In this document: in pieces, positions 20,199 through 35,815 of the stretch
Position numbering within the stretch: the stretch's first letter is position 1
How the letters are laid out: each line of letters opens with the position of its first letter
Source of the DNA: Winogradskyella sp.
GTDB lineage: Bacteria; Bacteroidota; Bacteroidia; Flavobacteriales; Flavobacteriaceae
Assembly (NCBI GenBank): GCA_028383925.1
Contig: JAOEWO010000015.1
Span: forward strand, 1-54,532
DNA: 54,532 bases
Reading direction: 5' to 3'
Made by a program: the position numbers and the translations under genes
Notes under the pieces: generated by a model
What the model was told of the DNA's origin: nothing
Databases searched by the model: none
What the model saw: only the letters and a program-made list of their open reading frames with translations

Positions 20199-20282
20199 TT
20201 TAACTCGATTCTTTCGTTGAATGTTTCGTTGCTCTTAGCATTTAACTCGCTTCTTTCGTTGAATGTTTCGTTGCTCTTAGCA
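20199..20282. repeat. 42-bp tandem duplication spanning the mnmD stop codon
   Basis: Copies at 20199-20240 and 20241-20282 differ at one base only (20208 A versus 20250 C). The right copy encodes the last 14 residues of MnmD and its stop; the left copy would encode the same peptide and stop again, downstream of the real stop. The period is a multiple of three, so loss of the first stop would extend the protein cleanly. Confidence 0.95.
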
Positions 20283-31411: not shown

Positions 31412-31882
31412 TTATTCTGCTATTTTTATTTGAGGCTTATGCGTTATTGGCACGCTACTAGAGTTTGCTATAAAACAAAGACGGTTTGCTTCTGTATGAA
31501 GACTAAGTGCCAAATCTATTTTATTTTTTTCTAAAATGGTAACTATAGGCGATAATACTACAGAAATAAATGCACCACTTCCATCTGTGTTTAGTTGTAA
31601 TGTGCCCGATGTTTCATCTAAATAGTCTATTAAAGTAATGTTATTTTTGTTGCACAAATACATATAAGACATCATATGACAAGATGAAAGTGCTGCTAAA
31701 AATAAATCTTCAGGATTGTGTTTTGTTTTATCTCCTTTAAATTCTTTTGCTGCTGAAACGGTTAACACTGCTTTATCTTTAATATAAACCTGATGTGTTT
31801 TAGAATTTGAAAAAACACCAGAGTTCTGTTTTTTATTTACAAAAGACCAATTTGTTTTTACTTTAAATTCTTTTTCTATCAT
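31412..31882 (-). CDS. OsmC-family protein
   Basis: The 156 residues have the OsmC/Ohr pattern: GDKTKHNPEDLFLAALSSCHMMSYMYLCNKN, with the cysteine typical of peroxide-reducing OsmC relatives, and a second conserved stretch ending SLHTEANRLCFIANSS with the second cysteine. These homodimers reduce organic hydroperoxides. Its start overlaps the stop of the transposase gene by 4 bases (ATGA); the DEAD-box gene follows after 4 bases. Confidence 0.9.
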   Translation of the reverse strand: MIEKEFKVKTNWSFVNKKQNSGVFSNSKTHQVYIKDKAVLTVSAAKEFKGDKTKHNPEDLFLAALSSCHMMSYMYLCNKNNITLIDYLDETSGTLQLNTDGSGAFISVVLSPIVTILEKNKIDLALSLHTEANRLCFIANSSSVPITHKPQIKIAE

Positions 31883-32319
31883 GTTTTATTGAGTGTATCA
31901 TTATCCCATTTTGAAGGATTATTTTGAATGTAATCTGAAATATTTTGATAAGCCTTATCATTTCTAATTATATGAACGTGAAATGAACGCTTCCATCTAA
32001 ATTCTAAAAAACCTGTTTTACGAATCAATTTTGATGATGTGGTTTTTAAGGCGCCAACTAATTCTGATAATGATTTTATTTTTAATTCCTTATCTGAAAC
32101 TAAACTGCGATCTATTTCTAATATCGCATGCACATGATTTGGCATAACAACTTTTGCATGCGTCACCAAATATGCATACCTATCTTGCAACCAATCTAAC
32201 TGCAAATCAACGATTTTTCCATATTCATTTAATTGCATTATTTTTTGGGCTGAATTTTTATTCTTGAAATCTGGCTGTACGGACAAGTCGCGACTTGTCC
32301 CTACGGATTGCGGAATCAT
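31879..32319 (-). CDS. REP-associated tyrosine transposase (RAYT), N-terminus atypical
   Basis: The core from about QLNEYGKIVDLQLDWLQ contains the HUH motif VVMPNHVHAI, then RWKRSFHVHIIRNDKAY and DYIQNNPSKW with the candidate catalytic tyrosine, as in RAYT/TnpA_REP Y1 transposases. The usual first strand (YFVTIC-like) is missing: upstream residues are translated from a REP palindrome and from the end of icmF. A TTG-started frame reaches 32409 and overlaps icmF by 35 bases; I give the ATG at 32319 as the likeliest start, with ATG 32238 as an alternative. Two REP palindromes lie at its 5' side. It may be a decayed copy. Confidence 0.72.
   Translation of the reverse strand: MIPQSVGTSRDLSVQPDFKNKNSAQKIMQLNEYGKIVDLQLDWLQDRYAYLVTHAKVVMPNHVHAILEIDRSLVSDKELKIKSLSELVGALKTTSSKLIRKTGFLEFRWKRSFHVHIIRNDKAYQNISDYIQNNPSKWDNDTLNKT
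32281..32300. repeat. REP palindrome, copy 1 (inside 5' end of RAYT frame)
   Basis: Perfect 20-bp palindrome with arms GGACAAGTCG/CGACTTGTCC, flanked by GTAC on the left and CTACGG on the right. It lies inside the extended transposase frame and is 47 bases from copy 2. Association with a RAYT gene is the defining feature of REP elements. Confidence 0.9.
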
Positions 32320-32347
32320 TGCAAATTCTTTCACAAAACATCGATAC

Positions 32348-32367
32348 GGACAAGTCGCGACTTGTCC
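32348..32367. repeat. REP palindrome, copy 2 (between icmF and RAYT)
   Basis: Identical perfect 20-bp palindrome, flanked by TAC on the left and TACGGG on the right, ending 7 bases before the icmF stop codon on the minus strand. As an RNA it would form a stable hairpin right after icmF. Confidence 0.9.
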
Positions 32368-32374
32368 TACGGGA

Positions 32375-35300
32375 TTACATATTACGACGATACTGCCCTC
32401 CAACCTCAAACAACGCAGAGGTGATTTGGCCTAAAGAACACACCTTACAAACTTCCATTAACGCTTCAAAAATATTCTGATTGCTAATGGCTCTTTCTTG
32501 CAAGTCTCTTAATAATTCATCAGTATTATGTGCTTCATGAAGATGCTTTAATATTTCAATTTGATATTGTTTTTCTTCTTCCGTCGCTCTAATCACTTCC
32601 TTCGGTACAACCGTTGGCGACCCTTTACTACTTAAAAAGGTATTGACACCAATAATTGGGAATTCACCATTATGCTTTAAGGTTTCATAATACAAACTCT
32701 CTTCTTGTATTTTAGAACGTTGGTACATGGTTTCCATAGCGCCTAAAACGCCTCCACGTTCTGTAATGCGATCAAATTCTAATAAAACGGCTTCTTCAAC
32801 TAAATCGGTTAATTCTTCAATAATGAATGAGCCTTGAATTGGATTTTCATTCTTAGCTAAACCTAATTCTTTATTGATGATTAATTGAATGGCCATGGCA
32901 CGTCTTACAGACTCCTCTGTTGGTGTAGTAATAGCTTCATCATACGCATTGGTATGTAACGAATTACAATTATCATAAATAGCATACAAAGCTTGAAGCG
33001 TTGTACGGATGTCATTAAAGTCAATTTCTTGAGCGTGCAAACTACGACCCGAAGTCTGAATATGATACTTCAACATCTGAGCTCTAGAATTGGCTCCGTA
33101 TTTATTCTTCATGGCTTTAGCCCAAATCTTACGAGCCACACGACCAATAACCGCATATTCTGGGTCGATTCCGTTTGAAAAGAAGAATGATAAATTTGGT
33201 CCAAACTTATTAATATCCATGCCTCTACTTAAGTAATATTCTACATAAGTAAATCCGTTAGATAAGGTCAATGCTAATTGCGTAATTGGGTTTGCACCTG
33301 CTTCTGCAATATGATAACCCGAAATAGATACCGAATAAAAGTTACGAACGTTATTTTCTATAAAATACTCTTGCACATCTCCCATTAAACGAATGGCAAA
33401 TTCAGTAGAGAAAATACACGTATTTTGAGCCTGATCTTCTTTTAAAATATCGGCTTGTACAGTTCCTCTAACCTGGGCAATTGTTTTTGTCTTAATATCT
33501 AAATACACATCTGCTGGTAACACTTGGTCTCCTGTAAGCCCCAAAAGCATTAAGCCTAAACCATTGTTTCCTTCTGGTAATTCACCATTGTACCTTGGAC
33601 GTTCTTTGCCTTTGTAAAGCTTGGCGATTTTTGCCTCTACTTCTTTTTCTAAGCCGTTTTCTTTAATGTAGATTTCACATTGCTGATCGATGGCTGCATT
33701 CATAAAGAAACCAAGCAACATAGGTGCTGGTCCGTTAATAGTCATACTCACCGACGTCATTACATTTGCTAAATCGAACCCAGAATATAATTTCTTAGCA
33801 TCGTCTAAACAACAGATGGACACACCTGCATTTCCGATTTTACCATAAATATCTGGGCGTAAATCCGGATCATTTCCGTAAAGTGTTACACTATCAAAAG
33901 CCGTCGACAAACGTTTTGCTGGTAAGCCCATACTTACATAATGAAAACGTTTGTTGGTACGTTCTGGACCACCTTCACCTGCGAACATACGTGCTGGATC
34001 TTCGCCTGTTCTTTTAAAAGGATATAAGCCTGACGTATATGGAAATTCACCAGGCACATTTTCTTGCAAACACCATCTTAAAATATCTCCCCAAGCTTGG
34101 TACTTTGGTAAAGCGACTTTTGGGATTTGTGTATGTGACAATGACTCTGTATGTGTTTCAATTTTTATTTCTTTATCTCTTACTTTAAAAGAATAGATTG
34201 GGTTTTTGTATTTGTTTAGTTTTTCGTCCCATCCTGTAATAACTTCCCAGTTGTATGGATCTAGATTTAGTTTTACACGGTCAAATTCGGCGATTAATAA
34301 TTTTATAAAATCTCGTGTTGTATCATCCTGAACTTGATTTAGTATCTCATCTTCATTTAAGCCTAATTTTCCAATAAAAGACCTTTCGACTGCGCTCAAG
34401 GTGACATTACCGACAGAACAGATTGTTTTATAAATACCGTATAATTTCTGAGCAACTTCAACTTGGTCATTCGCTGTTTTATCATAAGATCTGTTGCTTT
34501 CTGCAATTTCAGATAAGTAACGTGTTCTCGACGGTGGAATCACAAAAATCTTTTCACTCATTTCATCCGAAATGTGAAATGTAGATTTTAAATCGGCATC
34601 AGCTTTTTCAACCAATTTATCCATGATTGCTTTGTAAAGCGTATTCATTCCTGGATCGTTAAACTGAGAGGCTATGGTTCCGTAAACTGGTAAATCGTCT
34701 TGATGAACATCCCAAAGATTATTGTTACGCATGTATTGTTTCTTCACATCGCGTAAAGCATCAAGAGAACCACGTTTATCAAATTTGTTGATGGCTACTA
34801 AATCTGCAAAATCTAGCATATCAATTTTTTCGAGCTGTGTTGCAGCACCAAATTCTGGTGTCATAACATATAAAGCCACATCACTATGCTCCATAATTTC
34901 GGTATCAGATTGCCCAATACCAGACGTTTCAAGTATAATTAAATCGTATTCTGCAGCCTTTAAAACTTGAATGGCTTCATTGACATATTTAGACAATGCT
35001 AAGTTAGATTGACGTGTTGCCAAACTACGCATATAAACACGTGGTGAGTTAATCGCATTCATACGAATACGGTCACCTAATAATGCACCACCTGTTTTTC
35101 GTTTAGAAGGATCTACCGAAATTAAACCAATTGTCTTCTCAGGAAAATCAATAAGAAAACGTCTTACCAACTCATCTACTAAAGAGGATTTCCCTGCACC
35201 ACCTGTTCCTGTAATACCTAGAACTGGTGTTGAAGAATTTTTATTTTTATCATGAATGATATCTAAAGCGTCTTTTGCTACGTCAGGAAAATTTTCGGCA

Positions 35301-35815
35301 GCAGAAATAACTCTTGCAATGGCTTTCGGGTTTTTTTCATGTAACACATTTGCTTCACCATTAAGTTTATCACCAATAGCATAATCTGACTGTTGTACCA
35401 AATCGTTAATCATGCCTTGAAGCCCTAACTCTCTTCCGTCATCTGGAGAATAGATTCTGGTAATGCCATAATCCATCAATTCTTTAATTTCTTCAGGAAG
35501 AATAACGCCACCTCCACCACCGAAGATTTTAATATGTTCTGCACCTTTTTCTTTAAGCAAATCGTACATGTACTTAAAGTACTCATTATGTCCTCCTTGG
35601 TAAGAGGTCATTGCAATAGCGTTTGCATCTTCTTGAATTGCCGTATTTACGACTTCTTCTACACTTCTATCATGACCTAAATGAATAACTTCGACTCCTG
35701 TAGATTGTATAATACGACGCATTATATTGATGGCAGCATCGTGCCCATCAAATAAAGAGGCAGCAGTTACAATTCTTACTTTATATTTTGGCTTGTATGG
35801 TGGTACTTGTATCAT
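32375..35815 (-). CDS. icmF: IcmF: fused isobutyryl-CoA mutase with MeaB-like G domain
   Basis: The 1146-residue protein has the IcmF order: B12-binding domain with DGHD (23-26), GTPase domain with P-loop GTGGAGKSS (203-211), ETSGIGQSD (about 296) and NKFD (343-346), a linker, then the substrate-binding TIM barrel (from about 585, [20 protein letters not shown] and [12 protein letters not shown]). It interconverts isobutyryl- and n-butyryl-CoA and related acyl-CoAs with adenosylcobalamin; the G domain acts as built-in chaperone. In the linker, residues 469-498 ([11 protein letters not shown] ... EILNQVQDD) derive from two halves of a dispersed DNA repeat inserted in frame. The transposase and OsmC genes follow on the same strand. 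Confidence 0.96.
34322..34409. repeat. repeat-derived segment inside icmF
   Basis: Two pieces, 34322-34350 (contains TCATCCTGAACTTGATTTAG) and 34381-34409 (contains CCTTTCGACTGCGCTCAAGG), match by memory the two ends of a dispersed intergenic element common in flavobacterial genomes. They are read in frame as [10 protein letters not shown] and EILNQVQDD within the linker between the G and mutase domains. Confidence 0.65.

Follow-up and report, generated by a model that had tools for sequence, protein, structure and literature searches.

The window analysed here is a stretch of 54,532 nucleotides from a Winogradskyella sp. Its minus strand carries icmF (32375..35815), an intact ORF of 1146 aa that encodes a fused isobutyryl-CoA mutase with B12-binding, MeaB and MM_CoA_mutase domains (Pfam), and the top PDB match of the protein is 4xc6, a fused isobutyryl-CoA mutase. 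A linker connecting the G-protein and mutase domains is described in a published study (PMC10481361). In the window's IcmF, the variable linker from GTPase to mutase occupies residues 466-505 (34301..34420, minus strand), which amounts to 40 residues as measured here, and the stretch 34322-34408 within it contains two palindromic REPs, both read in frame. The first, REP-A (TGTCACCTTGAGCGCAGTCGAAAGGTCT; slot 1, 34379..34406, minus strand), consists of a TGTC tag, a 5-bp stem (ACCTT/AAGGT) and a CT tail, and together with the preceding AA (DNA to 34408) it encodes a 10-residue peptide, residues 470-479. It is followed by the native linker core (34349..34378, minus strand; residues 480-489) and then by REP-C (GAGATACTAAATCAAGTTCAGGATGAT; slot 2, 34322..34348, minus strand), which lies in the orientation opposite to REP-A, so placed that the tags of the two REPs are outermost, and codes for EILNQVQDD (residues 490-498). 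REP-C of the window is a decayed copy of GAGATCCTGAAACAAGTTCAGGATGAC: its tag reads TATC, and TGTC in relatives such as G012, where the slot-2 REP-C of an IcmF 95% identical to that of the window (L035) is still both tagged and paired. The REP-C consensus, as found in G003, has an 8-bp stem (ATCCTGAA/TTCAGGAT) and a 5-nt loop.

In the core between the two REPs, G485 is invariant and K483 nearly so among 37 IcmF proteins. Because linkers that are short and lack these REPs retain the same core (e.g. LDKAGID), REP-A and REP-C are separate elements around native sequence. A preliminary description of this DNA had reported a dispersed repeat read in frame at residues 469-498; both stretches are indeed present where it placed them, while the first residue is 470, and what it took for the two ends of one repeat are two opposed REPs around a native core that includes K483 and G485. 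An Rfam scan of the window returned nothing at gathering thresholds. When aligned with 4xc6, the Cupriavidus protein has 35 residues where that of the window has 64. The view that the linker forms an exposed loop leans on this alignment, because an AlphaFold model of IcmF built with 37 sequences was poor (mean pLDDT 53.9, pTM 0.41) and was excluded from the evidence.

The genome to which the window belongs (G000; 2.9 Mb in 101 contigs, 83% complete) contains many related copies. A search of this genome with 128 nt around the icmF REPs gave 26 matches, and the top three non-self matches are copies of REP-A, with 33 nt at 97% identity, 30/30 and 29/29 (E = 4.2e-9, 7.8e-9 and 2.7e-8, respectively). 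Counting icmF itself, there are 7 sites for the 20-mer core of REP-A (up to 2 mismatches), 26 for the pattern of the first, REP-A-like superfamily (up to 3 mismatches) and 18 for REP-C (up to 3 mismatches), with no site for any of the reversed controls. The REPs are therefore multi-copy, as had been surmised. In the rest of the window, neither REP core was found again at 0-2 mismatches; at 20199-20282 of the window lie two 42-nt tandem copies that are 98% identical. Nineteen of the 26 superfamily sites are outside any long ORF, and six are read in frame within conserved genes, namely icmF, leuS, hemW, the RNase R gene, mnmE and the gene for an E2; a seventh site in a long ORF (L373) was left out because its arms do not pair. 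Thus, icmF is not the single accepted case for which it had been taken, as five further conserved genes of the same genome carry such REPs in frame. For REP-C in this genome, IcmF aside, none of the sites was found deep within a long ORF, one (L153) being at a contig edge and poorly placed. An intergenic REP pair on contig C5 (70366-70464), between genes named by eye as accB and accC, has the same A...C layout as the pair in icmF. Across the genus, the REP-A-like pattern is present in 54 of 60 genomes, with controls at 0. Two opposed superfamily REPs also stand 3 nt apart, with no long ORF, at 46697-46753 of contig C58 of the window's genome (L355 and L356).

It could be supposed that the stretch is ordinary IcmF linker whose likeness to a repeat arose by chance, since the linker is variable and under low constraint, and odd sequence is to be expected there. 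We regard the probability of this as negligible. The matches of 29-33 nt elsewhere in the genome, the empty reversed controls, the same repeats in frame in the five further genes and a palindrome retained beyond amino-acid needs (see below) all speak against it, and the copy number together with relatives whose linkers are empty or differently filled rules it out.

Those relatives were compared in 145 genes, comprising IcmF linkers from 66 of 68 genus genomes (fragments in G067 and G068 were left out) and 79 of 80 further named loci (L139 had no pattern match). Linker length in the 66 genus genomes is 29-33 residues in 29 genomes, 38-40 in 28, 46-49 in four and 55 in five, so that lengths step by roughly 8 codons; the 79 other loci have linkers of 30-55 residues with a more even spread, most being at 30-32, 36 and 39. 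At the positions of the window's REPs, the relatives have either no REP or other content, which bears out the earlier proposal that the linker between GTPase and mutase has accepted repeats in frame. The slot-1 peptide occurs in several variants in different species, slot 2 elsewhere in the genus reads EILKQVQDD or EILQQAQND, and in some species slot 2 is followed by VIPTEGGTTDEESQ or VSSSAVENK. Moreover, REPs can be nested: G066, G023 and G029 have an extra REP within the REP-C loop, and when 24 nt are taken out of the linker of L253 (G066), what is left matches the REP-C consensus at 27/27 positions, the same removal giving a 25/27 match in L059 and L255. Tagged hairpins occur at 2.20 per kb in the linker versus 0.165 per kb in the remainder of the 145 genes, with at least one in 32 of the 145 linkers; outside the linker the detector gave 79 hits in 67 of the 145 genes, many of which are, by eye, variants of one conserved TGTC[AG]ATTTT stretch. 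Further IcmF REPs, of types E, F, D and G, are assigned by motif alone. With up to 2 mismatches allowed, a search of G010 yielded a single copy of its slot-1 REP (REP-B), so some fillers are not multi-copy in their own genome.

The pattern is not confined to IcmF. Our census drew on four genomes and comprised 85 REP sites, with 25 of the 26 sites of the window's genome (L373 being left out) and 20 each from G036, G012 and G018, where the known icmF sites of G036 and G012 were omitted and the 20 sites of G018 were drawn from 25 listed. Eighteen of the 60 further sites in the three relatives are in long ORFs, and altogether 24 of the 85 sites are in frame in long ORFs, two of these 24 in the opposite orientation. 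A single frame, VTxSAVExS, is shared by 18 of the 24 intragenic sites, although each copy has about 3.8 open frames out of six (binomial p = 7.7e-7, which is a guide only because the sites are partly related by descent). In two cases, two census sites fall in one and the same gene (L288/L299 and L308/L319). Pfam was applied to 19 of the 24 ORFs, and to IcmF, and every one has a domain above the cut-off; L314 and L338 were assigned by eye to LeuRS and MvaD, and names such as HemW, RNase R, ValRS and CusA are putative assignments from Pfam domains. In MvaD, a REP is found at the same place in two species with a different stem, and RNase R of a relative has a REP where that of the window's genome has one, in a different frame. 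Other REP-bearing ORFs in the relatives include LeuRS, a ValRS-like synthetase, adenine deaminase, two kinds of E2 and a hydroxyacyl-CoA dehydrogenase.

Two of these proteins, HemW and LeuRS, were followed in the best-scoring 30 of 68 genomes, a sample that is biased to relatives of the window's genome because of this choice. Between two conserved blocks of HemW there are 11 residues in 24 of the 30 loci and 21-29 in the other six, five of which hold a recognisable REP (G006 has none recognisable). These REPs are read in two frames, as LSPRAQSRGL or a near form in G036, G001, G028 and G066 and as DSLSAVQRS in G000. In LeuRS, a position that we call site A is empty in 16 and filled in 14 of the 30 loci, and the fillers represent several REP types, including VSSSAVETS, IPTEQSxEES, IASEAQQS, TASEAKQS and others; the site A segment is a gap in the alignment with Thermus LeuRS. 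Most filled sites differ from their empty counterparts by more than a clean insertion of 24 nt would explain, with 4 to 21 additional residues in LeuRS and 10 to 18 in HemW. Elsewhere in LeuRS, the region from LLYSRFWVKFM to EKMSKSK (L374-L403) varies from 97 to 191 residues across the genus and its middle is largely unrelated by eye, and before YPLELNTMPGW there are more REP-like in-frame inserts, in L395 (G066, two in tandem) and L399 (G008).

The phylogenetic distribution of these states raises the question of how many insertions have occurred. A tree of IcmF built without the linker (65 rows, the partial G062 being left out, with many weak forks) requires at least 15 changes between short and long forms, and a tree of LeuRS made without site A requires at least 11 changes between empty and filled, with filled and empty sister pairs among them. 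In the LeuRS table, G066 was scored as D-type and actually has a reverse REP plus an A-type; as its sister is B-type, the count is expected to be unchanged. Short IcmF linkers mostly accompany the flanking residues TIESV or TLESV and long ones mostly TICSV, and this joint switching of form and flank points to the exchange of whole alleles. The 15 changes of form therefore need not equal 15 insertions, and part of them likely reflects allele exchange. It would be tempting to go further and to propose that insertions were few and ancient, and that the mosaic arose mainly because species exchanged linker alleles horizontally, a view for which the reappearance of one and the same LeuRS filler in separated species also argues. 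However, single slots with REPs of several types, in several frames and nested in one another call for several separate arrivals, and we consider it rather unlikely that exchange is the main source. As a second process, it is compatible with the arrival of mobile REPs that we favor below.

A further question is whether the palindromes persist for reasons beyond the peptides that they encode. Of the 73 linkers with at least 36 residues, 56 supplied slot-1 segments, giving 44 distinct 30-mers, some of them REP-free. In eighteen of the 44, all five stem pairs are intact (G-U being allowed, and needed in one type only), when among 2000 synonymous recodings of slot 1 the mean was 1.24 and the maximum 6 fully paired. 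As pairing is far above that of synonymous recoding, amino-acid constraint is not enough to account for the palindrome. The 18 fully paired sequences comprise seven stem types in different species, so the type of stem shifts and the pairing stays, as would be expected if REPs in genes were selected as nucleic-acid elements, such as an mRNA hairpin, a pause or a site for gyrase or another protein, with the peptide as a by-product. We find this improbable. In single-stranded DNA folding, the REP-A hairpin of the window's icmF is weak (-1.7 kcal/mol), being equalled by 111 of 200 shuffles and thus having no excess stability, the full stem is missing from 26 of the 44 distinct 30-mers of slot 1, and 29 of the 66 genus linkers are short. 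The REPs also occupy different genes in several frames, and not always in one orientation. Moreover, the arrival of different REPs can explain the pairing in slot 1, and REPs that arrived recently and are still intact account for it equally well.

As for what might move these REPs, a candidate lies close by. Downstream of icmF, an ORF at 31879-32409 contains a RAYT/Y1_Tnp fragment (31918..32151, minus strand) that matches profile positions 47-121 of 121 and lacks the N-terminal part. Near it are two GTAG-tagged palindromes of a different REP superfamily, one perfect (32281..32304, minus strand) and one beginning 4 nt past the icmF stop codon (32348..32370, minus strand). The perfect palindrome has a strong fold as single-stranded DNA (-9.4 kcal/mol, with none of 200 shuffles as good). 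The RAYT/REP pair noted 2 kb downstream in the preliminary description is thus present, but its RAYT is a fragment, its palindromes are GTAG-tagged, and its suggested link to the icmF REPs is not supported: the GTAG palindromes are unlike the icmF REPs in sequence, and neither icmF REP has a GTAG tag. That a RAYT mobilised the icmF REPs is, in our judgment, highly improbable, even with this fragment and its two palindromes so near. At 31 of the 50 Y1-transposase matches in the genus, which were those examined, one TGTC-type REP was found in 99.5 kb, compared with 7 in 124 kb around hemW and 13 in 159 kb around leuS, where some of the copies are inside those genes. Across 60 genomes, the number of Y1 matches and that of REPs are positively and not significantly correlated (rho 0.21, p 0.10; for strong Y1 hits alone, rho 0.14, p 0.29), and no Y1 match occurs in G021 or G009, both rich in REPs. 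Mobilization by RAYT is thus unsupported by either the content of Y1 flanks or the correlation of numbers, and the downstream pair looks unrelated to the icmF REPs.

Twenty of the 50 Y1_Tnp matches in the genus belong to ORFs that are 492-532 aa long (e.g. L415, L418, L421, L422, L424-L427), among them L430 (contig C8 of G012), a HemF (coproporphyrinogen III oxidase) ORF whose N-terminal extension matches the Y1 (IS200-like) profile. The match in L430 is below the cut-off and absent in hmmscan, and most of the other 19 are above it. L430, the one ORF in which the HemF domain was checked, may represent the fusion of a domesticated transposase domain with HemF.

Several known systems resemble the one described here. 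The palindromic elements of Rickettsia are about 150 bp long and lie in frame in unrelated protein-coding genes (PMC10969869). The REPs of Winogradskyella are likewise dispersed palindromes accepted in frame in conserved, unrelated genes, which upholds one half of an analogy drawn earlier, whereas their size does not fit: they measure 24-30 nt rather than about 150 bp, belong to a genus of Flavobacteriaceae and occupy slots that swap REP type between species. Taken as a whole, the interpretation first offered for this locus is partly supported. According to Di Nocera et al. 2013 (PMC3733652), REPs of the CGTC class have no dedicated transposase and are present in Bacteroidetes, one of five phyla; CGTC/TGTC and GTAG REPs inside ORFs encode peptides, and recB of X. 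campestris and X. oryzae has different REPs at about one site. In the CGTC/TGTC superfamily of that work, an unpaired CGTC, in many cases TGTC or CCTC, stands at one end; the icmF REPs share this kind of tag (TGTC, abutting the stem, in slot 1), a short palindrome and copies within ORFs. For the stem (8-9 bp from AT, with a loop of 4-5 nt, in the superfamily) the picture is mixed, with 8 bp and a loop of 5 nt in the REP-C consensus and 5 bp beginning with AC, which does not fit, in REP-A; the tail here is mostly CT, in contrast to the mostly CCA tail of the superfamily. As in that superfamily, no association with a transposase was seen, the Y1 family being the one examined, in line with what Di Nocera et al. 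state (PMC3733652). The icmF REPs are dispersed, have other genomic copies and lie wholly within an ORF of more than 120 aa, which is how an intragenic REP is defined. Beyond that study, whose main text does not contain the word Flavobacteri- (PMC3733652), are the proportion in frame in our census, gene slots common to species, one dominant frame and the IcmF steps of about 8 codons. RepRanger (PMC12306157) found many REP sequences in two Flavobacterium species, by a definition in which REPs seldom overlap protein-coding regions, and the words intragenic and in-frame are absent from its main text. Unlike RAYT/REPtron systems, the icmF REPs differ from the RAYT-associated palindromes in tag and sequence, and TGTC-type copies do not flank RAYT genes. 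Perfect inverted repeats of up to 284 bp are found in coding genes of Nematomorpha mitochondria (PMC6649704); there too inverted repeats are kept in coding genes, but these are animal mitochondria and not dispersed bacterial REPs. Among the matches listed in our search of the literature on repeats in genes, which covered titles and the starts of abstracts and left most subscription papers outside, there were no REPs in flavobacterial genes. In-frame intragenic REPs are known, and genus-wide recurrent slots with turnover of REPs look new within the literature searched.

In summary, the stretch 34322-34408 of icmF consists of elements with copies elsewhere that keep the frame, belong to multi-copy families, sit in slots that are empty or differently filled in relatives and recur in the same manner in other enzymes. 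From this we infer that they moved, that the loop tolerated them and how they entered: on sequence comparison, the two REPs are likely mobile arrivals that were likely kept as a mere lengthening of a tolerant linker loop, an explanation in which we have considerable confidence. Points that count against it are the filled sites that depart from a clean 24-nt step, the single-copy REP-B of G010, the sign of allele exchange in IcmF, the weak REP-A hairpin and decayed REP-C of the window, and the Y1 comparisons, which linked no transposase to these REPs. A REP unit of about 24 nt, or 8 codons, with an open sense frame would enter a gene with no frameshift; insertions in exposed loops would survive selection, and those elsewhere would be lost; later REPs might then nest in an existing slot, and recombination would spread alleles between species, so that the content of the slot keeps turning over. 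We further speculate, much more tentatively, that the TGTC REPs of Winogradskyella could be a mobile loop cassette, combining a length of 8 codons that keeps the frame with repeated docking in the same exposed slots of the same enzymes, nesting in older copies and interspecies swapping, and that, as part of the same proposal, the preferred frame VTxSAVExS may give a harmless polar loop.

REPs of this class are described as extragenic. In one genus, we find them in frame in core enzymes, including LeuRS, a ValRS-like synthetase, RNase R, MnmE, E2, HemW, MvaD and IcmF, and, among its species, a single slot can be found empty, filled, filled differently or nested. Comparison of these states can address two long-standing questions, namely by what route REPs travel when no transposase is known for them and to what extent new protein segments stem from selfish DNA, and it offers a natural insertion series for enzyme loops. 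If the loop-cassette proposal is true, a selfish repeat family would be steadily remodeling the loop lengths of core enzymes throughout the genus.
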